Below are positions 790 to 22,592 of a DNA stretch of 27,139 bases, piece by piece (the stretch's first letter is position 1; each line of letters starts with the position of its first letter). The notes beneath the pieces are model-generated. The model was not told the origin of the DNA. It saw nothing but the letters and a program-made list of their open reading frames with translations, and did no database searches. The position numbers and the translations under genes are program-made. The DNA is taken from positions 1 to 27,139 of the IMG/VR virus record IMGVR_UViG_3300049733_000171; one strand, 5' to 3'. This DNA comes from a virus.

Positions 790-1055
790 AAAAGAAGACT
801 GAGCAGGACGTCGTCGATTGGTGGGAAGCGCAAGACGGGGTCGTTGTTAAGCTCAATCTTCTGGGTCGGCGCGGTTGGCCGGATCGTGTATTTCTAGACT
901 ATGGAGGGCGCGCGGTATTCATTGAATTCAAACGGGTGAAGGAAGAAGCAAGACCATTGCAGGATTACATCCACAGGTTACTAATTAAGAGGGGCTTTGA
1001 GGTCTATGTCTGCCATACCTTCGAGCGAGCAGTCGAAGTCCTATTGGCCCGCTAG
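777..1055 (+). CDS. VRR-NUC domain nuclease
   Basis: A 92-residue protein starting at GTG 777, directly after AAAGGAGG (766-773); this start lies inside the end of the upstream nuclease gene. It is essentially one minimal VRR-NUC domain (PD-(D/E)XK fold). The core GRRGWPDRVFLDYGGRAVFIEFKR carries the catalytic Asp of PDR and the E-x-K pair. Stand-alone VRR-NUC proteins are common in phages, often beside a SNF2-like helicase, as here. A role in cutting branched DNA during replication or recombination is inferred from FAN1/VRR-NUC enzymes. The end overlaps the helicase start by 50 bases in another frame. An in-frame start at 744 lacks the strong ribosome site. Confidence 0.85.
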   Translation: MSVLEKKTEQDVVDWWEAQDGVVVKLNLLGRRGWPDRVFLDYGGRAVFIEFKRVKEEARPLQDYIHRLLIKRGFEVYVCHTFERAVEVLLAR

Positions 1056-2415
1056 AGATTACCAGAAGAAGGCCATCCGCCTCCTGATTTCTCAGGGCTG
1101 CGGCGGGATGTTCTTGGATCCGGGGCTGGGCAAGACGTCAATAGCCCTGACGGCGTTCCAGATCCTCAAACAGCAGAAGATCAACAAGCGGATGCTGGTG
1201 ATAGCGCCCCTGCGTCCGATGATGGTGACGTGGCCCGACGAAATCCAGAAGTGGGCTGATTTCAACGAGTTGTCGTACTGCATCGTCCACGGTGCCCAGA
1301 AGGAGCAATGTCTCGACCTTGAGGCTGATATCTTTCTTATCAACCCCGATGCGATTTCGTGGCTTCTTGAGAACAATCGCTTTCGGCGTATCGGGGCTGA
1401 CATCCTCTGCGTGGACGAGAGCACCAAGTTCAAGAATTCGTCCACCAAGCGATTCAAAGCCATGCGCCAGATGGTGCCGAGCTTCAAGCGGCGCTGGATC
1501 TTGACTGGCACGCCCGCCCCACGATCGCTGCTGGACTTGTTCGGGCAGATTTACATTCTGGATCAGGGACTTGCGCTGGGGCGGTTCATCACTCACTATC
1601 GCAACGAGTACTTCTACCCGTCCGGATTTGGTGGGTACGACTGGCAGCCGAAAATGAATTCGGCTGAGCGCATCGCCGCCAAGATTGATCCTATGGTCCT
1701 ACGCCTCAAGGCAGAGGATTGGCTGGACATGCCAGATCTCATATTTCAGGACATTCTTGTGGATCTTCCGCCCGAAGCTCGCAAGGTGTACCGTCAACTG
1801 GAAATTGCATTCATTACGCAGATACAGGAAGAGGAGATCGTAGCCGCGAACGCTGCGGTCGCCGGAGGTAAATGCCGTCAAGTGTCCAACGGGGCCATCT
1901 ACAGTGAAGTTCCTACGGAAGGTACGGGACGCCGTCAGTTTCACAAAATTCACGATGCCAAGCTGGACGCTTTGGATGATCTCGTGGAGGAGCTCCAAGG
2001 TCAGCCTCTCCTTGTGCTGTACGAGTTCCAACACGACTATGAGAGGATGGCGGAGAGATTTCCCAATGCCCCTGTCATTCATGGTGGCGTATCCCCGAAA
2101 GCGGCACAATCTGCCATCGAGCGATTTAATCGCGGAGAATTGCCTCTACTTATCGGTCATCCAGCCAGTATGGGTCATGGTCTCAATCTCCAAGAAGCGT
2201 GCAATCGGGTCTGTTTCTACGGAATGACCTGGAATTTCGAGCATTACGACCAAGCTCTCCGTCGGGTTTATCGTCAGGGGCAGCAGCAGAATCACGTCAT
2301 TGTGTACCGAATCGTGGCCCGGGACACACTGGATCAAGACGTAATTGAGTCTCTTAAATCCAAAGATGATGTGCAGGCTGCCTTCGTGCGAAGATTAAAG
2401 ACGTTCAAGCGATAA
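1006..2415 (+). CDS. SNF2-family DNA helicase/translocase
   Basis: A 469-residue protein from ATG 1006 (GAGG at 999-1002; purine-rich AAGAGGGG further up). Superfamily 2 motifs read in order: Walker A DPGLGKTS (K43), the DEAH-box equivalent VDEST (137-140), LTGTP (motif III, 166-170), ASMGHGLNLQ (motif V, about 387-396) and QALRRVYRQGQ (motif VI, 416-426, arginine finger region). The length is that of the compact phage SNF2 proteins, without extra DNA-binding domains. It probably remodels forks or junctions with the VRR-NUC nuclease encoded just upstream. A TTG start at 997 is possible but gives only three more residues. Confidence 0.92.
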   Translation: MSAIPSSEQSKSYWPARDYQKKAIRLLISQGCGGMFLDPGLGKTSIALTAFQILKQQKINKRMLVIAPLRPMMVTWPDEIQKWADFNELSYCIVHGAQKEQCLDLEADIFLINPDAISWLLENNRFRRIGADILCVDESTKFKNSSTKRFKAMRQMVPSFKRRWILTGTPAPRSLLDLFGQIYILDQGLALGRFITHYRNEYFYPSGFGGYDWQPKMNSAERIAAKIDPMVLRLKAEDWLDMPDLIFQDILVDLPPEARKVYRQLEIAFITQIQEEEIVAANAAVAGGKCRQVSNGAIYSEVPTEGTGRRQFHKIHDAKLDALDDLVEELQGQPLLVLYEFQHDYERMAERFPNAPVIHGGVSPKAAQSAIERFNRGELPLLIGHPASMGHGLNLQEACNRVCFYGMTWNFEHYDQALRRVYRQGQQQNHVIVYRIVARDTLDQDVIESLKSKDDVQAAFVRRLKTFKR

Positions 2416-2418
2416 TGC

Positions 2419-2447
2419 TTGCTTTTCCCATGCGATCGAGCTATACT
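2419..2447 (+). promoter_or_regulatory. Sigma70-type promoter for the 2485 gene
   Basis: TTGCTT (2419-2424) and TATACT (2442-2447) are separated by exactly 17 bases, close to the sigma70 consensus, in the only sizeable gap of this operon. The -10 box is flanked by CGAG and CTCG, a small inverted repeat that could be an operator. The ribosome site of the next gene (AAGGAGG, 2474-2480) lies at a suitable distance downstream. Not tested; the call rests on hexamers, spacing and position. Confidence 0.65.
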
Positions 2448-2484
2448 CGCACTGTAGTTTCCATTTTCCAAACAAGGAGGCCCC

Positions 2485-2892
2485 ATGGCCGAAGTGAAGC
2501 CGCAGACCCAGCCGGGAGCGACCGCCCCGGCGAACAAGCCCGCCACCCCGTCGCCCGCGACGGCTCCGCGGGACCGTACGAGCAAGAATTTCGACAAGAA
2601 CGCCACCATCACGCTGAAGTCCGAGAAGAACCCGAAGCGCGTCGGCTCCAAGTCCTACGATCGCTTCGAGCACTACAAGACCTCGAAGACCGTCGGCGAC
2701 TTCATCGCCAAGGGCGGCACCTTCGGCGATCTGTCCTGGGATTCGGCGCGGGGCTTCATTACCATCTCCGGCTACACCCCGAAGATGGTCGAGAAGAAGG
2801 CCAAGGCCGAGAAGCCCGCGGCTCCGGCGCCCGCCGGGACCCCCGTCCCGCCGACCGCCGTCAAGGGCCAGCCCGCCGTCGCCACGAAGTAA
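2485..2892 (+). CDS. Unknown, probably abundant 135-residue phage protein
   Basis: No known family is recognised. Residues 1-32 are Ala/Pro/Thr-rich and look disordered; residues about 34-95 form a compact basic core (ENPKR, SKSYDRFEHYK, TVGDFIAKGG, WDSARGFITI motifs); residues about 97-135 are again Ala/Pro/Lys-rich. The core resembles small phage and bacterial proteins of unknown function. Codon use is strikingly uniform (AAG, GCC, ATC, GTC), like the major capsid gene and unlike its neighbours. It has its own promoter (2419-2447), a strong AAGGAGG site and its own terminator (2916-2947). Together these suggest a highly made, basic protein, perhaps nucleic-acid-binding; that role is inference only. 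Confidence 0.85.
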   Translation: MAEVKPQTQPGATAPANKPATPSPATAPRDRTSKNFDKNATITLKSEKNPKRVGSKSYDRFEHYKTSKTVGDFIAKGGTFGDLSWDSARGFITISGYTPKMVEKKAKAEKPAAPAPAGTPVPPTAVKGQPAVATK

Positions 2893-2915
2893 CCGTCGCC
2901 GGCGTCCCCCCTGAG

Positions 2916-2947
2916 AACACCCCTCCTGGTGAGGGGTGTTTTCTTTT
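2916..2947 (+). terminator. Intrinsic (Rho-independent) terminator
   Basis: A perfect 10-bp stem, AACACCCCTC (2916-2925) with GAGGGGTGTT (2931-2940), encloses the 5-base loop CTGGT and is followed by TTCTTTT (2941-2947). It lies 24 bases after the stop codon of the 2485 gene and 14 bases before the start of the glycosyltransferase gene. There is no room for a promoter after it, so downstream genes must rely on read-through or antitermination. Confidence 0.9.
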
Positions 2948-2960
2948 GGAGATCTGATCC

Positions 2961-3845
2961 ATGCTCATAGCCATTCCAAGTAGAGCTCGGGCCACGCGGC
3001 AGGTGACCTTGATGACTCTACCGCAGGAAATTCGAAAACAAGTCCTTCTAGTAGTCCCAATGGAGGAAGTTAAATCGTATGTCGGATTGGGAGCGGCGTC
3101 CATCGTAGGTATGGACACTCCAGGAATTGGCCCTGCAAGACAAGCAATCTGTGACATTGCCCTAAGCGCGGGCCAGTCCAAGGTCTTGATGCTAGACGAT
3201 GACCTTGTCTTCGCTACTCGCCGGAAGGACGACCCCAGCAAATTCCGGACCTCTACCGACAGTGAAATCGTTAAGGCAATCAACGACATAGATCTTTCAC
3301 TGAATATGTTCTGCCATGCGGCGATTGCTCCGCGTGAGGGTGGCAATCGCAGAACGGAACGTTACATCACGAACACCCGCGCGCTCCGCGCCTTGGCGTA
3401 TCGCGCTGATATCCTAAGATATTACGACATCAAGTTCAGCGAAGTTAGCTTGATGGAAGATTTCTACGTCCAGCTGAGCCTTCTTACTCGGGGGTGCGCC
3501 CACCGAACCATTAACTGGATCGTGCAGAATCAAGGCGGGAGTAATTCCGCCGGTGGATGCTCTACGTATCGAACGATGTTTAGTCAGGGGCTGGCCGCGC
3601 GTCAACTTCAGGAGAAATTCCCGGAGTTTGTAAACGTTGTCAAGAAGACTACGAAGACCGCGTGGCAGGGGCAAGAACGAGAAGATGTAATCATCCAATG
3701 GAAGGCAGCGTATGAATATGGACAACGACGAGCAAGCGGAGCGGAGGGCGCTCCTAGCATATTGGATCAAGGAGCGCAGGAAGATCCTCCAGCTGAAGCT
3801 GGAGGGAGCACCCCGCCCATGGACGAAGGACTCGATCCTCGATAG
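2961..3845 (+). CDS. TET-associated/GREB1-like glycosyltransferase (DNA base modification)
   Basis: A 294-residue protein from ATG 2961 (GGAG about 8 bases upstream). It begins with a Rossmann-like strand (MLIAIPSRAR) and carries VLMLDDDLVF (DDD at 79-81), the metal/sugar-nucleotide DXD-type motif of GT-A enzymes. Further family-like blocks are the GGNRR segment (127-131), LMEDFYVQL (ED 166-167) and GGCSTYRT (198-205). The pattern is that of TAGT/GREB1-type glycosyltransferases, which phages use on hydroxymethylated bases. The next gene is a base-hypermodification protein and a hydroxymethylase follows, supporting that role. Residues 251-294 overlap that next gene in another frame and look low-complexity. 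Sugar and base substrate cannot be told. Confidence 0.7.
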   Translation: MLIAIPSRARATRQVTLMTLPQEIRKQVLLVVPMEEVKSYVGLGAASIVGMDTPGIGPARQAICDIALSAGQSKVLMLDDDLVFATRRKDDPSKFRTSTDSEIVKAINDIDLSLNMFCHAAIAPREGGNRRTERYITNTRALRALAYRADILRYYDIKFSEVSLMEDFYVQLSLLTRGCAHRTINWIVQNQGGSNSAGGCSTYRTMFSQGLAARQLQEKFPEFVNVVKKTTKTAWQGQEREDVIIQWKAAYEYGQRRASGAEGAPSILDQGAQEDPPAEAGGSTPPMDEGLDPR

Positions 3846-4551
3846 CTATCGCTTTACCAATGTTCGAAGAGAAGATGATCGAGTCACCCGGTGGATCGCC
3901 GAACATTGGCGGAACCCATTTGTTTTCCATGAGAATCTCTTTCCGGCTCTGGTTCTTGCTCGCCTTCTCAATCTCCCTGAGACTCTGGCCGACCTCGGCT
4001 TTCCGGACATCTGGAGTGACGAATACATCCGAAATAAGATCAAAGCCCGGCGAGCTCTCGGAGCCAAGATCTTAAATGCCGCCTATCTCATCACGACTTG
4101 CGGCGTCCAGATGGATAAGGTAGATTACATCGTGGATATCGCGTCTACGGTTCAGGACCACACCACGAGATATCTCCCCGGAGAACACTCTCTTGAGTGT
4201 TACTTTGGATACTTCCGGCAATTCAAAGGACTGGGCAGCTTTCTGTCTGCTCAGATTGTCGCAGACATCAAGAATATACCTCACCACCCCCTCGAAAAGG
4301 CCGCAGACTGGTGGAGCTGGGCAGCAGTAGGGCCGGGTAGCCTGCGGGGTCTCCGTGCGGTCCTGACTGGTCAGGACGTTACTGAGAGGCATTTTCTGCC
4401 CCTTGCTACCCAGCTATACCACCGGCTGGAAGAGGAACATTTCCCGGAAGGCTTGAACATCTGCATGCAAGACTTCCAGAACTGTCTGTGCGAATTTTCC
4501 AAATACTGGAAGGCGTATGACGGATCAGGATTTCCAAAGCAAAGGTACTGA
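3712..4551 (+). CDS. aGPT-Pplase/HMUDK_hel-family DNA base hypermodification protein
   Basis: A 279-residue helical protein starting at ATG 3712, six bases after GGAAGG (3700-3705); an ATG at 3718 is the alternative. The signature PWTKDSILDSYRFTNV plus RREDDRVTRWI (about 37-62) is characteristic of the alpha-glutamyl/putrescinyl thymine pyrophosphorylase family, also listed as the helical domain of 5-hmdU DNA kinase. A helix-hairpin-helix-like GLGSFLSAQIVAD (173-185), ADWWSWAAVGPGS (198-210) and a closing MQDFQNCLCEFSKYWK (252-267) complete the family layout. Relatives act on 5-hydroxymethyl-dU in phage DNA, building amino-acid or polyamine adducts. The hydroxymethylase encoded downstream supplies the expected precursor. 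The exact reaction of this clade is not known to me. Confidence 0.85.
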   Translation: MNMDNDEQAERRALLAYWIKERRKILQLKLEGAPRPWTKDSILDSYRFTNVRREDDRVTRWIAEHWRNPFVFHENLFPALVLARLLNLPETLADLGFPDIWSDEYIRNKIKARRALGAKILNAAYLITTCGVQMDKVDYIVDIASTVQDHTTRYLPGEHSLECYFGYFRQFKGLGSFLSAQIVADIKNIPHHPLEKAADWWSWAAVGPGSLRGLRAVLTGQDVTERHFLPLATQLYHRLEEEHFPEGLNICMQDFQNCLCEFSKYWKAYDGSGFPKQRY

Positions 4552-4732
4552 CGGGAAGCTGGTAAAGCGATTTCAGTACCCCGACGGAAGACTTACAGCC
4601 CTTATCGCAGTGGGGAACGATTGGCAGGTAGTTGTCTTCGCTTCTTCGGAAGCCGCCAATGCGTTTGCGAAGCATTTCAATTTGACAGTGGAGGAACTAA
4701 AAGATGGAACTCAGGTCCCTGGAGGCGAGTAG
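4517..4732 (+). CDS. Small unknown protein within the hypermodification cluster
   Basis: A 71-residue acidic protein starting at ATG 4517, with GGAAGG at 4508-4513. Its start lies inside the end of the hypermodification gene and its end overlaps the start of the thymidylate synthase homologue (4704), so it is tightly coupled to both. The sequence suggests a beta-hairpin (KRFQYPDGRLTALIAV), then WQVVVFASSEAANAFAKHFNLTVEEL, a strand and helix as in small alpha/beta accessory proteins. No Cys, no membrane segment, no family recognised. Position suggests a partner of the base-modification enzymes. Confidence 0.65.
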   Translation: MTDQDFQSKGTDGKLVKRFQYPDGRLTALIAVGNDWQVVVFASSEAANAFAKHFNLTVEELKDGTQVPGGE

Positions 4733-5621
4733 CCTATTTCACGAAGTGTTGTGGAACATGCGCATCAAGGCGATCATCGAGGGATCGCGGAATGGAAGGG
4801 TCAAAACGATTCTTGAACCCGTGACCCTCTGTACTCTGGAGCCTACTCACAGAGTGCTGTTCGTACCCCAACGGAAGGAAAATCCTTATTTCCACTTCGC
4901 CGAGTGCTTGTGGATGATGGCGGGGTGCCGCTCAGTCGACTGGTTGTCTAATATTAATCCTCGGATGGCGCAGTACGCCGAAGCTGATGGTCAAATTCAC
5001 GGAGCATACGGCTGGCGCTGGAGAAATCATTTCGGATTTGATCAGATCCGAGCTACCGTTGATCTTCTTCTACGGCAACCGAACACTCGCCGGGCTGTGA
5101 TCGAAATGTGGGACGCCCCCAACGATCTGAATGCGGAAAAGAATGATCTTCCCTGCAACACCCACATCTATTTCCGCAAGGTGGGTGAGTACCTGGACAT
5201 GACTGTGTGCAATCGATCGAATGATTTGGTCTGGGGCGCTCTGGGGTCAAACATTGTTCACTTCTCCTTTCTGCTGGAATTCATCGCCCATGCTGTTGGA
5301 CTCAAGGTGGGATGTCTCTATCAAGTCACGAACAATCTCCATGTCTACGAGCGGCACTGGCATTTTCTGGATGTGCCCCCACAATATCATTCGTACGCTG
5401 AATTAGGAGTCTCCCCGTACAAGATTATTAAGGGGGATTTCGAAGTATGGTTGGAGGAGTGTGAAGACTTCGTCGTTGGAAATAGAAGACAAAGATTCTC
5501 CGAACCGTTCTTTACAGAAGTGGCAGCGCCACTTCTGGATAAGGCCCCAGACCTCTGCAAAGCGGAGGACTGGAAATTGGCGTGCATGAACTACGACAAA
5601 AGGAAAGCGAATGACGGCTGA
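4704..5621 (+). CDS. Thymidylate synthase homologue, probable dUMP 5-hydroxymethylase
   Basis: A 305-residue thymidylate synthase-fold enzyme, start ATG 4704 with GGAGG at 4690-4694. Visible active-site residues: the ECLWMMAG helix (68-74), nucleophile Cys151 in DLPCNTHIYF, phosphate-binding NRSND (R171, D174), GALGSNIVHFS with Asn183, and NLHVYERH (H213, Y215). The Asn at the position that distinguishes uracil from cytosine points to dUMP, not dCMP. The family's usual C-terminal folate-closing tail is absent, as in phage hydroxymethylases. Together with the neighbouring glycosyltransferase and aGPT-Pplase-family genes, conversion of dUMP to 5-hydroxymethyl-dUMP is more likely than ordinary dTMP synthesis. 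It overlaps the HD gene by 11 bases. Confidence 0.85.
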   Translation: MELRSLEASSLFHEVLWNMRIKAIIEGSRNGRVKTILEPVTLCTLEPTHRVLFVPQRKENPYFHFAECLWMMAGCRSVDWLSNINPRMAQYAEADGQIHGAYGWRWRNHFGFDQIRATVDLLLRQPNTRRAVIEMWDAPNDLNAEKNDLPCNTHIYFRKVGEYLDMTVCNRSNDLVWGALGSNIVHFSFLLEFIAHAVGLKVGCLYQVTNNLHVYERHWHFLDVPPQYHSYAELGVSPYKIIKGDFEVWLEECEDFVVGNRRQRFSEPFFTEVAAPLLDKAPDLCKAEDWKLACMNYDKRKANDG

Positions 5622-6144
5622 ACAAATAGGGAATCTGTTTCGAGCGTACGACGTGAAGAGGTACCACACCCTGCCTCTTCATCGTGAACAGACAGTCGGG
5701 GACCACACGGCTCGGGTGCTGGCGCTGGCATTCTATCTGCATTGGGAGGCTCCCAGCGTGGATCTGGTCCAAGCAATCCTGGAGCACGACGCTTACGAGT
5801 TTCTCACGGGGGACATCCCCGCCACGGCGAAGTGGTTCGGCAACTTCGGGAAGGTGGTGGACGAGTTGGAGCGCCGGATGGATCAGGCGTACACCCTGAA
5901 CTTCCGCTGTTGCGACAAGCTCTCAGGGGAAGAGCTTCTGGTCCTCAAGGTGGCGGACATGCTGGAGCTCTGCTGCCGCTGCTCGGCCGAGGTTATGATG
6001 GGAAATCGCTTCCTGAACCCCATCTTCCAGACGGGAGCGAAGTATCTGGAGACTCTACGAATCGAAATGCCCGAAGGGATGTGGGAAAAGGTTAACGTCC
6101 TATTGGGTCCAAAACCGGGTGGTACTACACCCCCAACCCACTAG
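5611..6144 (+). CDS. YfbR-like HD-domain 5'-deoxynucleotidase
   Basis: A 177-residue HD-superfamily hydrolase from ATG 5611 (AAAGGAAAG just upstream), overlapping the end of the hydroxymethylase gene. The metal and substrate residues of the YfbR/YGK1 type are in place: R26 in LHREQTVGDH, H32, the HD pair H59-D60 in EHDAYEFLTGDIP with E63 and D68, and D116 in KVADMLEL. Enzymes of this group remove the 5' phosphate from deoxynucleoside monophosphates. In phages with altered thymine they may strip the unmodified dTMP/dUMP pool; here that is inference from gene order. Confidence 0.85.
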   Translation: MTAEQIGNLFRAYDVKRYHTLPLHREQTVGDHTARVLALAFYLHWEAPSVDLVQAILEHDAYEFLTGDIPATAKWFGNFGKVVDELERRMDQAYTLNFRCCDKLSGEELLVLKVADMLELCCRCSAEVMMGNRFLNPIFQTGAKYLETLRIEMPEGMWEKVNVLLGPKPGGTTPPTH

Positions 6145-18506: not shown

Positions 18507-19013
18507 CTAGGTGATCTGGCCCTGATGGAACGGACGATTGATTTCGACGTAGGCCAGCCCCGAGGACGGAGTGCCGGTCGTGGTCGAAACCTTCGCGCCC
18601 AGGATCTGCTCGCCGGCCACCGCCGCGTCATCGACGCTTCCGGGGGTCGCCGCCAGCGAGAACACATCGGCGCCCGCAGCCATCGCGTTCGGAGCCTTCA
18701 CCGCCGCGCGTCCCACGATCTGGAACCACGCGAAAGAGGCCGCCGGAACGATGTTGAGGGACACCGCCACGGGGCCGACGCCGCCGGTGGCGGGAGCCAG
18801 AACCGCGGTCGCGAGGTGGGTGTCGTAATCCACCAGAGAACCCACGACGATCGAAGCGCCGGAGGCCTTGAGGTAGATGACTTCACCCGCGTGGGGCACC
18901 GTCTCGTCGTTGTCGCTGATCTTCGCGACCGTACCCAGAGGCACTTTCTGGGACGTCGAGACATCGTTGAGTGCCGGGAAGCCGATTTGCGGCTCGGTGA
19001 TCTTGTAGGCCAT
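18507..19013 (-). CDS. Head decoration-like protein
   Basis: A 168-residue beta-rich protein, ATG 19013 with GGAG upstream, directly after the major capsid gene. It has VPLGTVAKISDNDE, GEVIYLKASGASIVVGSLV and many Ala/Gly/Val strands, without Cys. Codon use is strongly biased to GC-ending codons, as in the capsid gene, which suggests very high expression. Position and composition fit a capsid cement/decoration protein. Confidence 0.7.
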   Translation of the reverse strand: MAYKITEPQIGFPALNDVSTSQKVPLGTVAKISDNDETVPHAGEVIYLKASGASIVVGSLVDYDTHLATAVLAPATGGVGPVAVSLNIVPAASFAWFQIVGRAAVKAPNAMAAGADVFSLAATPGSVDDAAVAGEQILGAKVSTTTGTPSSGLAYVEINRPFHQGQIT

Positions 19014-19025
19014 GGAGGTCTCCGG

Positions 19026-20024
19026 TTAGGTTCCGAGGTGCCGGCCCTGGAACGCTTGCCCCGAGCAGGTCAGCGCTCCAGCGAAGGCGAGGATGGAAAC
19101 TTCCGCGTCCTGATTCACCGCGTAGCGGCGGCTCGGGCTCAGCGACACCATGTTCCGCTGAGCGTGGGGGCGCCACTTCAGGAACTTCGTGTTCAGGAAC
19201 ATCGCGGTGTTGACCGTCATGCCGGGTCCCCACGCCGAGGACGGGAAGTACAGACCACCGTCCAGAACGACATCGGCGTCCATGTACTGCACGGTCGGGA
19301 ATCCAAGCTTCGCCTTGGACGGGTCCGTGAACCGTTGCAGCACCTGGAGGGACGCCATGTAGAGCGCCCACATCGCGGCATCCGTGATGATGAGGTCGGG
19401 ACGGTCACGGCCGCGAACGAGCTGCGCCCAGATGGAGTTCCACTGCGCCTGGATGTTCGCGGCGGTGGTGGTCGTACCCCGGAGGGTGTACGGTTGCCAG
19501 AAACCCCACAGGGAGCGGTCGATGTTGCCGTACTGCCCGGTCGCGACTCGGCCGGTGGCGGCGCCGAGAGGGACGGCAGCGTCCAGGCCGACGATTTCCT
19601 TGCCGCCGGATCCGGTGCCGTCGCTGTAGAAGCCGTTGGCGATCATGTTTTGCATGGTCGACTCGGCCACAGTAACGCGGGAATCGAGCAAGTCGATCAT
19701 CTGCTCGCGTCCGGCGTTCTGGAGTTGTTCCAGGCCCGAAATGGTGACTGGAACCGCGCACTGCTTCAGCGAGAACTCCGCTGCGGAGAGGACGTCTTGC
19801 GCCGCCACCGGGAGAAGATCGTAGCCCGAGTACCAGCCCGCATTCGCGTTTTCGGCGAAGGAGAGTTCCTCGTAGATGATCCTGCCCCCGGAGACGGTCT
19901 TGACGTTCCCCTTGCTCTTGATGTACGCCAGACCCGCGTTGTTGTTGAGGACGTTGTCCTCGATCTTCTTCGAACGCGATTCGATGGTCGATGCCACGAT
20001 GTCCGTGACGTTCGGGAAAGCCAC
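19026..20024 (-). CDS. Major capsid protein
   Basis: A 332-residue protein, starting at GTG 20024, four bases after AGGAGGT. Recognisable features: an N-terminal helix (NVTDIVASTIESRSKKIEDNVL), GGRIIYEELSFAENANAGWYSGYD, QNAGREQMIDLLDSRVTVAE (the long spine-type helix), PDLIITDAAMWALYM and RRYAVNQDAEVSI near the end. This fits HK97-fold major capsid proteins of podoviruses, and it follows a scaffold gene. Codons are strongly biased to GC-ending ones. It is the shell subunit. Confidence 0.85.
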   Translation of the reverse strand: MAFPNVTDIVASTIESRSKKIEDNVLNNNAGLAYIKSKGNVKTVSGGRIIYEELSFAENANAGWYSGYDLLPVAAQDVLSAAEFSLKQCAVPVTISGLEQLQNAGREQMIDLLDSRVTVAESTMQNMIANGFYSDGTGSGGKEIVGLDAAVPLGAATGRVATGQYGNIDRSLWGFWQPYTLRGTTTTAANIQAQWNSIWAQLVRGRDRPDLIITDAAMWALYMASLQVLQRFTDPSKAKLGFPTVQYMDADVVLDGGLYFPSSAWGPGMTVNTAMFLNTKFLKWRPHAQRNMVSLSPSRRYAVNQDAEVSILAFAGALTCSGQAFQGRHLGT

Positions 20025-20125: not shown

Positions 20126-21250
20126 TTACTGCCGACCACTGTGCTTCGCGATCGCGGCTTCGATGGCTCCCCGGACTGTGTCCACATTCGCGGAAGGGGC
20201 CGAACCTGACGGCGCTCCCGTTACGCTCATTCCCGCGAGTTCGCGAGACTTCTGAGCCGGAGCATTCAGATTCGAGGCCGCTTTGGACACTTCCTTTTGC
20301 GTCACTGTGGCCGCGAGATCACTATGGGCGAGTATAGCACGCTGGTAGGCGACTTGCAAGCTCATTTGCTCTCCGCGGTTAGCCGCCGCATCCAGAAGAT
20401 CGGCCATAGTGTCTTTGACGATCTCGAAGTATTCGTTCTTCGGATCGTTGGCGAACGTGTTGATTTCGTCCTCCATCTTTTTGTTCTGGTCCTTCACCAC
20501 ATTCTCACGTTGCGTGGTCACGTTTTGCATGAAATCACGGAACGGAGCCATGTGGCGAGAGATGGCGGCGTCCAGAGCGTTGGGGTCGAAACCTCCGTTC
20601 GCTGGAGCTCCATTGCCAGAGACCACGAGGGCCAGCGCCTGATCCAGAAGCTTGACATCGACACCGAATCCCTGGATGATTTGCGCGGCGACTTGTGCTT
20701 TTTGAGCAGGGGCTCCAAAGCGGAGACTGCTGGCGATGTTGAATAGGTTAGAGACGATCTGCGCGGGCGGGGTCTTCTCGTATTCGATGAAGTTCTTGTG
20801 CTGGGCGAAAAGTCCACCGAATTGCTCGGCGAATTTGCGACTTTCGGCCGACTGCTGGAGCGCTATGTCAATCTGGCGCTCGCGACGATGAATTTCCGCC
20901 TGCACCTCCAGAGGAAGTGTCGTCCAGTGCTTTTCCCGGATGGCGGGCTTCCAGCTTTCCGGCGGGCGAACTTTGATGACAGGTTTCTGCTCCGCAGGCT
21001 TCTGCTCGTCGGGCTTTTCTTCCGCCTTGATTTCTGGCTTCTTTTCTTCCGCTGGCCTCTGCTCTCCAGCGGGCTTTTCTTCTGCCGGTTTCTCTTCGGC
21101 GGGCTTTTCCTCCGCTTTGATTTCAGCGGGCTTTTCTTCGGCGGGCTTTTCCTCCGCTTTGACTTCGGTCGGCTTTTCTTCGGGCTGCGGAGCCGCTGCC
21201 GCCTCGGCTCTTGTCAGGGCTGCTTCGATGTCTGCGCGTACATCGCTCAT
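20126..21250 (-). CDS. Scaffolding protein
   Basis: A 374-residue protein, ATG 21250 with AGGAGAAAATC upstream. Residues about 22-95 are a low-complexity run of KAEEKPAEEKPAE-type repeats (acidic/basic Pro-rich). The SWKPAIREKHWTTLPLEVQ block (about 100-118) and following helix IHRRERQIDIALQQSAES are typical of podovirus scaffolds, as is the C-terminal basic helix VRGAIEAAIAKHSGRQ, which would bind the capsid. It directly precedes the capsid gene. It overlaps the gene before it as ATGA. Confidence 0.85.
   Translation of the reverse strand: MSDVRADIEAALTRAEAAAAPQPEEKPTEVKAEEKPAEEKPAEIKAEEKPAEEKPAEEKPAGEQRPAEEKKPEIKAEEKPDEQKPAEQKPVIKVRPPESWKPAIREKHWTTLPLEVQAEIHRRERQIDIALQQSAESRKFAEQFGGLFAQHKNFIEYEKTPPAQIVSNLFNIASSLRFGAPAQKAQVAAQIIQGFGVDVKLLDQALALVVSGNGAPANGGFDPNALDAAISRHMAPFRDFMQNVTTQRENVVKDQNKKMEDEINTFANDPKNEYFEIVKDTMADLLDAAANRGEQMSLQVAYQRAILAHSDLAATVTQKEVSKAASNLNAPAQKSRELAGMSVTGAPSGSAPSANVDTVRGAIEAAIAKHSGRQ
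21094..21162. repeat. 27-base direct repeat inside the scaffold gene
   Basis: An identical 27-base unit begins at 21094 and at 21136, a 42-base period that encodes 14 residues of the KAEEKPAEEKPAE run. Shorter diverged copies lie on both sides. It is the sort of tract that can gain or lose units. Confidence 0.8.
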
Positions 21251-21564
21251 GATTTTCTCCTAGAGTTCACTACCTCGATGGCTCTCGCAATATCTGCTTT
21301 GCGACTCGGATCGACTCCCTTGCGTGCTTCTATACGATTTTTCTCGTCTGTTCTCCACTGATTCTTGAAGTCGTCAGTGGTCGTTAGCCCCCTCGCCCTC
21401 ATGAACTCACGGTGCTGCGAGCGAGAACTAAATCTTGAATCCCCCGCGTCCTGATAGGCACGATCGTTCCACAAAACTCCATCATGGTTCTGTGGTTCGG
21501 CCACGAAATCAGGCGAAACTTCCACAAGAGTTCCGTCCAACTGCTGAATGAATCTGCGTTTCAT
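21247..21564 (-). CDS. Conserved small protein upstream of scaffold, 105 residues
   Basis: It starts MKRRFIQQLDGTLVEVSPDF and continues with a short polar segment, HREFMRARGLTTTDDFKNQW and a basic helical end (KADIARAIEVVNSRRKS). Small proteins with this MKRRxIQ-DG-L-EV opening lie near portal and scaffold genes in many podoviruses; function unknown. Both ends are ATGA overlaps with neighbours, so it is translated as part of the head operon. Confidence 0.75.
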   Translation of the reverse strand: MKRRFIQQLDGTLVEVSPDFVAEPQNHDGVLWNDRAYQDAGDSRFSSRSQHREFMRARGLTTTDDFKNQWRTDEKNRIEARKGVDPSRKADIARAIEVVNSRRKS

Positions 21565-22592
21565 AGAAGCTCCGCTACGAGGATGGCCGCGATTATAGCA
21601 TCAAGTTGACTCTTTGTAACGGGCGGCAGTGTGACTTTCACTTCCACCATAGAAGGTGATACAGCCACCACTGTCGTCGTGACCTGTTTGGGAGTGAATT
21701 CCACACCCTGCTTTTCCAGAGTTGCAAGTATCGCATCCCGAACGGCCGTCTTCGGCTCTTCGTGTTCTTCTTCATATTCTCTTCTTCGGCGATACATCAA
21801 CTCATAAAATCCGCCACCGACCCTCGGGACTTCGATGGGTGTGGGCGCGACAAACTCCACCGGGAATCCGGTCACCGTGAAGGTGCCGAAATCCGCGGAA
21901 ATGCTGCGCTCTACGACAAACGTAGCATCAGCGCCGGTAATCGTAAAAGACGTAGGCGCAGCATTAATAAAACGATCAGCTACGGTGGACGCATCAAACC
22001 CCGTGAGTAGGAAGACTCCGGGCTGAGCGTCAAGAACGTAGGCTCCAGGAGTTCCAGCCGTGTATACAAGATCGGCCGCGAAGCCCGTAATCGTGAACGA
22101 CCCCGGCTCCGCATTGATGCTACGGTCTGCGAGAAGGCCCGCCAAGAAGCCGGTGATCGCAAAAGAGCCTACTTGAGCGTCAATAGATCTTCCAGCCAAG
22201 AGGTCAGCTTGGAAACCAGTGACGGTGAACTCTCCCGGCTGCGCATCGAGGAATAACCCTCTCGCGAGCGTCGCAGCAAATCCTGTAATCGCGAAATTTC
22301 CCGGAACGGCGTTGATGCTACGATCAGCAAGGAGGGTCGCTGCAAAGCCGGTGAGGATGAAGACTCCGGGCTGGGCATCGAGTGAATATCCTTTCGCGAG
22401 TGTTGCTGCGAATCCGGTGACCGCAAAGGATCCCGGTTGGGCGTCAATAATACGCCCAGCGACTAGAGTCGCTGCGAATCCTGTAATCGTAAATGAGCCC
22501 GGTTCGGCGTTGATAGAGTAAACGCCTGGAGTTCCCGCTGCCGGATCGAGAATTGGGTTGAACCACTTCTCGATTATGAGCTTAAAGCCCAT
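21561..22592 (-). CDS. Ten-repeat beta protein (22-residue PGxFxxTGF units)
   Basis: A 343-residue protein. After a short head (MGFKLIIEKWFNPILDPAAG) come ten tandem units of 22 residues, residues 27-252, of the form I-(N/D)-A-(E/Q)-P-G-x-F-x-(I/V/L)-T-G-F-x-A-x-L-x-x-x-R; unit 7 carries an extra six residues (TAGTPG-like). A charged linker (RRRREYEEEHEEPKTA) leads to a small alpha/beta C-terminal domain (AILATLEKQGVEF to IIAAILVAELL). Similar SFxxTG repeats occur in phage and prophage proteins, function unknown. A fibre or spike on the head is the simplest reading. Start ATG directly follows the previous stop. Confidence 0.75.
   Translation of the reverse strand: MGFKLIIEKWFNPILDPAAGTPGVYSINAEPGSFTITGFAATLVAGRIIDAQPGSFAVTGFAATLAKGYSLDAQPGVFILTGFAATLLADRSINAVPGNFAITGFAATLARGLFLDAQPGEFTVTGFQADLLAGRSIDAQVGSFAITGFLAGLLADRSINAEPGSFTITGFAADLVYTAGTPGAYVLDAQPGVFLLTGFDASTVADRFINAAPTSFTITGADATFVVERSISADFGTFTVTGFPVEFVAPTPIEVPRVGGGFYELMYRRRREYEEEHEEPKTAVRDAILATLEKQGVEFTPKQVTTTVVAVSPSMVEVKVTLPPVTKSQLDAIIAAILVAELL
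21837..22514. repeat. Tandem 66-bp coding repeats, ten units
   Basis: These bases encode ten 22-residue units of the preceding gene. The units are diverged at DNA level but keep the GFAATL-like and AQPG/AEPG blocks, pointing to old duplication followed by drift. Confidence 0.75.

Follow-up and report, generated by a model that had tools for sequence, protein, structure and literature searches.

What role would lead a phage to furnish one small gene of its left arm with separate transcription signals, and to write it in the codons of its capsid gene? The question is raised by a 27-kb IMG/VR virus record, analysed here over its 27,139 nucleotides (hereafter the window), in which positions 2419-2943 form the unit under study. 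On the forward strand, this unit comprises a promoter (2419-2447; TTGCTT at 2419-2424 and TATACT at 2442-2447, spaced by 17 nucleotides) and a ribosome-binding site (AAGGAGG, 2474-2480), both found by direct reading, an ORF starting with the ATG at 2485 and encoding a 135-residue basic protein (2485-2892; computed pI 10.0, net charge +12), and an intrinsic terminator hairpin (2913-2943) with a T-rich stretch 3' of its stem. All four elements of the original prediction lie where it had placed them, and the stem, described as 10 bp (AACACCCCTC/GAGGGGTGTT), can be extended to 13 bp.

Only 3 of 6 consensus bases are matched by the -35 element (2419-2424), which explains why a generic promoter scan did not call the site at 2419-2447, and a search of Rfam gave no match. 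Comparison with relatives is a better test of chance for the promoter and hairpin than such consensus scans. Six relatives keep TTGC and NATACT unchanged and almost equally far apart although the spacer sequence has diverged, and most of them also have an AGGAG-type ribosome-binding site. The exact motif TTGC-N19-YATACT occurs at 2 sites in the window, against 0.02 expected. The hairpin (-24.3 kcal/mol, z -4.0) was equalled by none of 200 shuffles, and of 65 distinct loci carrying a homologue, 44 have a hairpin 3' of the gene, against about 2 expected, with diverged or unrelated stem sequences (a hairpin being counted if it beat all but at most one of 60 shuffles). The retention of promoter and hairpin position in relatives of diverged sequence supports the proposal that the gene is a self-contained transcription unit.

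Codon usage further suggests that this unit is highly expressed. With the major capsid gene as reference (19026-20024, reverse strand; phrog_9953 major head protein, 2.4e-90), the capsid-trained CAI of the ORF reached 0.782, compared with 0.757 for the capsid gene itself and 0.33-0.51 for the other left-arm genes, and its GC3s was 0.92 versus 0.51-0.71, in line with the predicted capsid-like bias among neighbours of ordinary codon usage. Simulated genes encoding the same amino-acid sequence with the codon usage of the neighbours did not exceed a CAI of 0.54. The ORF ranks first of 28 window genes (z 10.6), a ranking from which an overlap filter omits the adjacent virion structural gene (r18507, 18510-19013), whose CAI of 0.706, the next best after the ORF and the capsid gene, is still below that of the ORF. 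Furthermore, the family gene ranks first against its neighbours in 13/13 genomes, representing all family genomes with a comparable capsid gene, when each genome's own capsid gene is the reference (z 2.9 to 10.6), so that the bias looks selected rather than accidental. In several distant homologues no bias is visible from GC3 alone, and CAI trained on their own capsid gene reveals it in those tested. Given this conservation, high abundance, as initially proposed, is well supported, and the protein is probably very abundant, judging from its codons.

The gene lies between a SNF2-type helicase (1024-2415, forward strand, start codon uncertain; PF00176, 7.6e-22), itself preceded by a PD-(D/E)XK nuclease and a VRR-NUC-like protein, and a TAGT glycosyltransferase that starts 69 bp 3' of the ORF (2961-3845, forward; PF20691, 2.9e-15). 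Downstream, on the same strand, follow a protein with the helical domain of 5-hmdU DNA kinases (HMUDK_hel, 3712-4551; PF18723, 1.8e-34), a thymidylate synthase-like enzyme that is probably a hydroxymethylase (4704-5621; PF00303, 7.9e-25), a YfbR-like HD-domain deoxynucleotidase (5611-6144; PF12917, 1.4e-10) and a DNA ligase. Between the HMUDK and ThyA genes, a small ORF (4517-4732, forward) is conserved in many relatives. TAGTs form a family of GT-A-fold DNA glucosyltransferases originally recognised in T-even phages, and TAGTs that occur alone are believed to make further modifications (PMC13216743). Together, the TAGT, HMUDK, ThyA-like and HD neighbours identify the region as a DNA hypermodification cluster and not just a replication arm; the original assignment to the replication arm was thus incomplete, having missed both the nature of these surroundings and the tight linkage of the gene to them.

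This linkage extends across the family. Among 66 distinct loci, a TAGT gene was found within 110 bp downstream in 39 and an HMUDK gene in 6, while 3 more loci had TAGT or HMUDK within 800 bp, 7 more had cluster genes within 5 kb, 10 were devoid of cluster genes and 1 had no data. The family gene is therefore directly upstream of TAGT or HMUDK in 48/65 loci and within 5 kb of the cluster in 55/65. Searching in the reverse direction, the family was present at 28/44 TAGT loci and 24/74 HMUDK loci. The linkage is partly due to shared descent. Adjacency to HMUDK is also kept in records of different layout (L119 in G004, L096 in G008), in which no relative of the window capsid gene was detectable; Pfam confirmed HMUDK for L044, located on the same record as L119. 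Some HMUDK-adjacent loci have no SNF2 gene upstream.

At loci that lack the family, a different small basic protein, also carrying a Lys/Ala/Pro tail, often takes the slot in front of TAGT (L150, L152, L157, L160, L171, L193, L149, L186, L225 and L031:11439-11924). Aligned to the core domain described below with hhalign, these substitutes gave P values of 5e-4 (A12) and 0.0026 (L186), and MW202897 or L149 gave no relation; such scores are only suggestive of remote homology to the core. Except for L157, the substitutes have no equally clear codon bias.

The family itself is defined by a core of about 60 residues with the signature NPK[RK]xGS, both of which, motif and alignable core, are found in the window protein. 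Iterated searches of IMG/VR increased the number of relatives from 12 to 95, and 95 of the 102 IMG/VR matches to the pattern were relatives. Five residues (N, P, K, S and Y) are invariant in an alignment of 59 sequences (A8). In the window protein, this alignment and the AlphaFold2 model delimit the core to residues 33-98 (2581-2778), flanked by an Ala/Pro/Thr-rich N-terminal tail predicted to be disordered (2485-2580; pLDDT about 43-55 over most of its length) and by a C-terminal tail (2779-2889) that begins with the conserved GYTPKMVEKKAKA and becomes Ala/Pro/Lys-rich, with low pLDDT from residue 104. The tails differ between members, yet they are mostly rich in K, A and P. Many members are strongly basic and several are acidic (pI 5.0-6.3). 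Purifying selection acts on the core, where dN/dS is 0.08-0.35, and the ratio is higher in the tails. Two very lysine-rich, long-tailed members (L095, L115) lie near ligase, SNF2 and nuclease genes, at loci lacking TAGT.

The window protein matched no Pfam family at E<=10, including HU/IHF, SSB (PF00436) and linker histone H1. Searching Pfam, PHROGs and NCBIfam with the 59 members returned scattered matches, each to one or a few members (best E 0.004), which we consider to be chance. A sequence profile search of the PDB gave nothing significant, tblastn searches for close relatives in phage and plasmid collections gave no convincing match, and two scans of GTDB genome contigs with narrow patterns found no family member. 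The family is undescribed, of a known functional kind and absent from the curated libraries searched.

Structure prediction had been suggested as a check for residues 34-95, and when run on the core it produced a confident, winged-helix-like AlphaFold2 model (pLDDT 94.9, pTM 0.83) with a beta-alpha-alpha-alpha-beta order (strand 41-44, helices 56-65, 70-75 and 80-88, strand 92-95 in window protein numbering). Fold matches of this model in the PDB are weak (Foldseek E >= 1.4, best Z 5.6) and fall repeatedly on winged-helix domains; they include RPC39, the MetAP2 insert, GATOR1 subunits and FAM91A1, whose matched segments we take to be winged helices. The model would therefore point to a weak winged-helix-like resemblance rather than to membership of that fold. 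The predicted recognition helix, FGDLSWDSAR, is not basic. Owing to its disordered tails, the full-length model gave no useful information in a fold search. In BFVD, the core had one significant structural neighbour, the uncharacterised protein Gp18 of the Alphaproteobacteria phage PhiJL001 (Q5DN87; E 5.4e-5, TM 0.89, 33% identity), which probably belongs to this family too.

In addition, the core occurs in other protein contexts. Two phages carry it four and seven times. It is shared with phage DUF2786/DUF7168 proteins (phrog_421), being fused N-terminally to these domains in L081, L124, L269 and L271, whereas the window protein has neither DUF2786 nor DUF7168. In G008, an 885-aa protein (L268, 569-3226, reverse strand) combines two core domains with a predicted C-terminal ADP-ribosyltransferase domain (PF03496), and its 422-aa neighbour contains a single core. 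Such fusions and repeats indicate a reusable module for which a protein-binding role is possible, and the core may serve as a general adaptor.

The computations thus yield a conserved transcription unit, capsid-level codon adaptation, a conserved domain and linkage to TAGT, HMUDK and ThyA. From these, we tentatively favour, short of regarding it as probable, a very abundant, non-enzymatic DNA-associated protein that coats or organises the modified phage chromosome. The winged-helix-like core and the flexible Lys/Ala/Pro-rich tails would bind nucleic acid without sequence specificity, and the protein would coat or organise the chromosome during copying, while the neighbouring enzymes hypermodify the bases of that same chromosome. 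Here we infer nucleic-acid binding, its lack of specificity and the action on modified DNA; the modelled core, the basic tails and the genomic context make DNA binding plausible. In favour of this nucleoid role, we count the first codon rank in 13/13 genomes, the conserved promoter and terminator, the cluster linkage, the core modelled at pLDDT 95, the K/A/P tails, the basic slot substitutes and the precedents of MotB and TF1; against it, the non-basic recognition helix, the acidic homologues, the presence of the core in ADP-ribosyltransferase and DUF2786/DUF7168 proteins, and the weak PDB matches.

The SPO1 protein TF1, an HU-family member from a phage with hmU-DNA, is small, abundant, basic and DNA-binding. 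The window protein resembles it in being small, basic, probably abundant and encoded by a phage whose pyrimidines are modified, with DNA binding here predicted; TF1 has the HU fold, whereas the window protein is predicted as beta-alpha-alpha-alpha-beta and has no Pfam HU match. T4 MotB, again a small DNA-binding protein, from a phage whose DNA is glucosylated, binds unmodified and glucosyl-hmC T4 DNA without specificity (PMC6070864), a likeness resting for the window protein on predicted binding. MotB seems set apart by its description as a predicted KOW plus OB fold (PMC7827196), against a predicted winged-helix-like core here. With linker histone H1, the likeness concerns architecture only, a winged-helix-like globular core with Lys/Ala/Pro-rich tails, since Pfam reveals no sequence similarity and the core fold match is weak. 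A more specific version of the chromatin role, in which a dedicated protein of linker-histone-like design evolved with the TAGT/HMUDK pathway to recognise or present hypermodified DNA, its slot being filled in some cluster-bearing phages by a basic protein that is unrelated or extremely distant, appears rather unlikely. The pathways that attach sugars and other groups to phage DNA are portrayed as enzyme sets. Judging from this locus, many of these pathways may travel with one abundant non-enzymatic protein, of a family absent from the searched curated libraries. Its domain is now defined in roughly a hundred phage contigs, and binding to modified DNA offers a testable idea.

Other roles have to be weighed against coating of the modified chromosome. 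The core could instead bind another protein and the tails act as tethers, in an adaptor or virion-internal protein whose role is to be packaged or to recruit the modification enzymes. The repeated core of the 885-aa predicted ADP-ribosyltransferase protein and the single core of the 422-aa protein would fit this role, such phage enzymes being often packaged and injected (PMC5512222), as would the acidic homologues. The second site with exactly this promoter motif also fits; it lies some 300 nt 5' of the capsid gene (20331-20359, reverse strand; motif scan of the window), so that the ORF and the capsid gene share it. This copy is conserved in two relatives (L045 and L046), a conservation that is partly protein-driven since it sits within the coding sequence of the gene preceding the capsid gene. 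The shared motif, together with the occurrence of the core in another phage's large ADP-ribosyltransferase protein, leaves the predicted "non-virion or early" nature of the product not established. We nevertheless hold this adaptor or virion-internal role to be rather unlikely: in the window clade, the structural genes are located elsewhere than the replication/modification arm that houses this gene, and its strong linkage is to base-modification enzymes, not head genes. A functional replacement for SSB, acting in stoichiometric amounts at forks, would account for the abundance, the replication-arm site beside the SNF2 helicase and the lack of a PF00436 SSB in ten near-relative records. That search, however, covered the PF00436 type only, and a conserved replication-arm protein of a related genome (L128:17035-17805, reverse strand; phrog_27714) is an alternative SSB candidate; with a predicted alpha/beta winged-helix-like fold instead of an OB fold, and HMUDK adjacency persisting where SNF2 is not upstream, we deem this role unlikely.

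Direct support is absent for the host-takeover factor also envisaged at the outset, a regulatory DNA-binding protein acting on the host nucleoid or transcription. The winged-helix-like fold would suit it, and MotB of T4, a toxic protein, changes the binding of H-NS (PMC6070864, PMC7827196), but a single slot with modification genes is kept across diverse phages and capsid-level expression would be more than a sequence-specific regulator requires, making this role improbable. Finally, its own promoter and terminator and a composition unlike that of its neighbours could mark the gene as a moron, i.e. a recently inserted self-contained gene of foreign composition. This reading is contradicted by conserved synteny, the gene being retained at one position in almost every close relative rather than occurring sporadically, and is hardly credible given that the composition shift tracks the phage's own capsid codons in 13/13 genomes and that the core is under purifying selection (same dN/dS range as above). 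Coating or organisation of the modified chromosome thus remains our tentative preference.

Two other products of the window's right part have unusual sequences. The protein encoded before the capsid gene (20126-21250, reverse strand) has a repetitive N-terminal part of the EKPAEEKPAE type and is perhaps a scaffold, and a 343-aa protein (21561-22592, reverse strand) is made of repeats of about 20 residues, INAxPGSFxITGFxATL.
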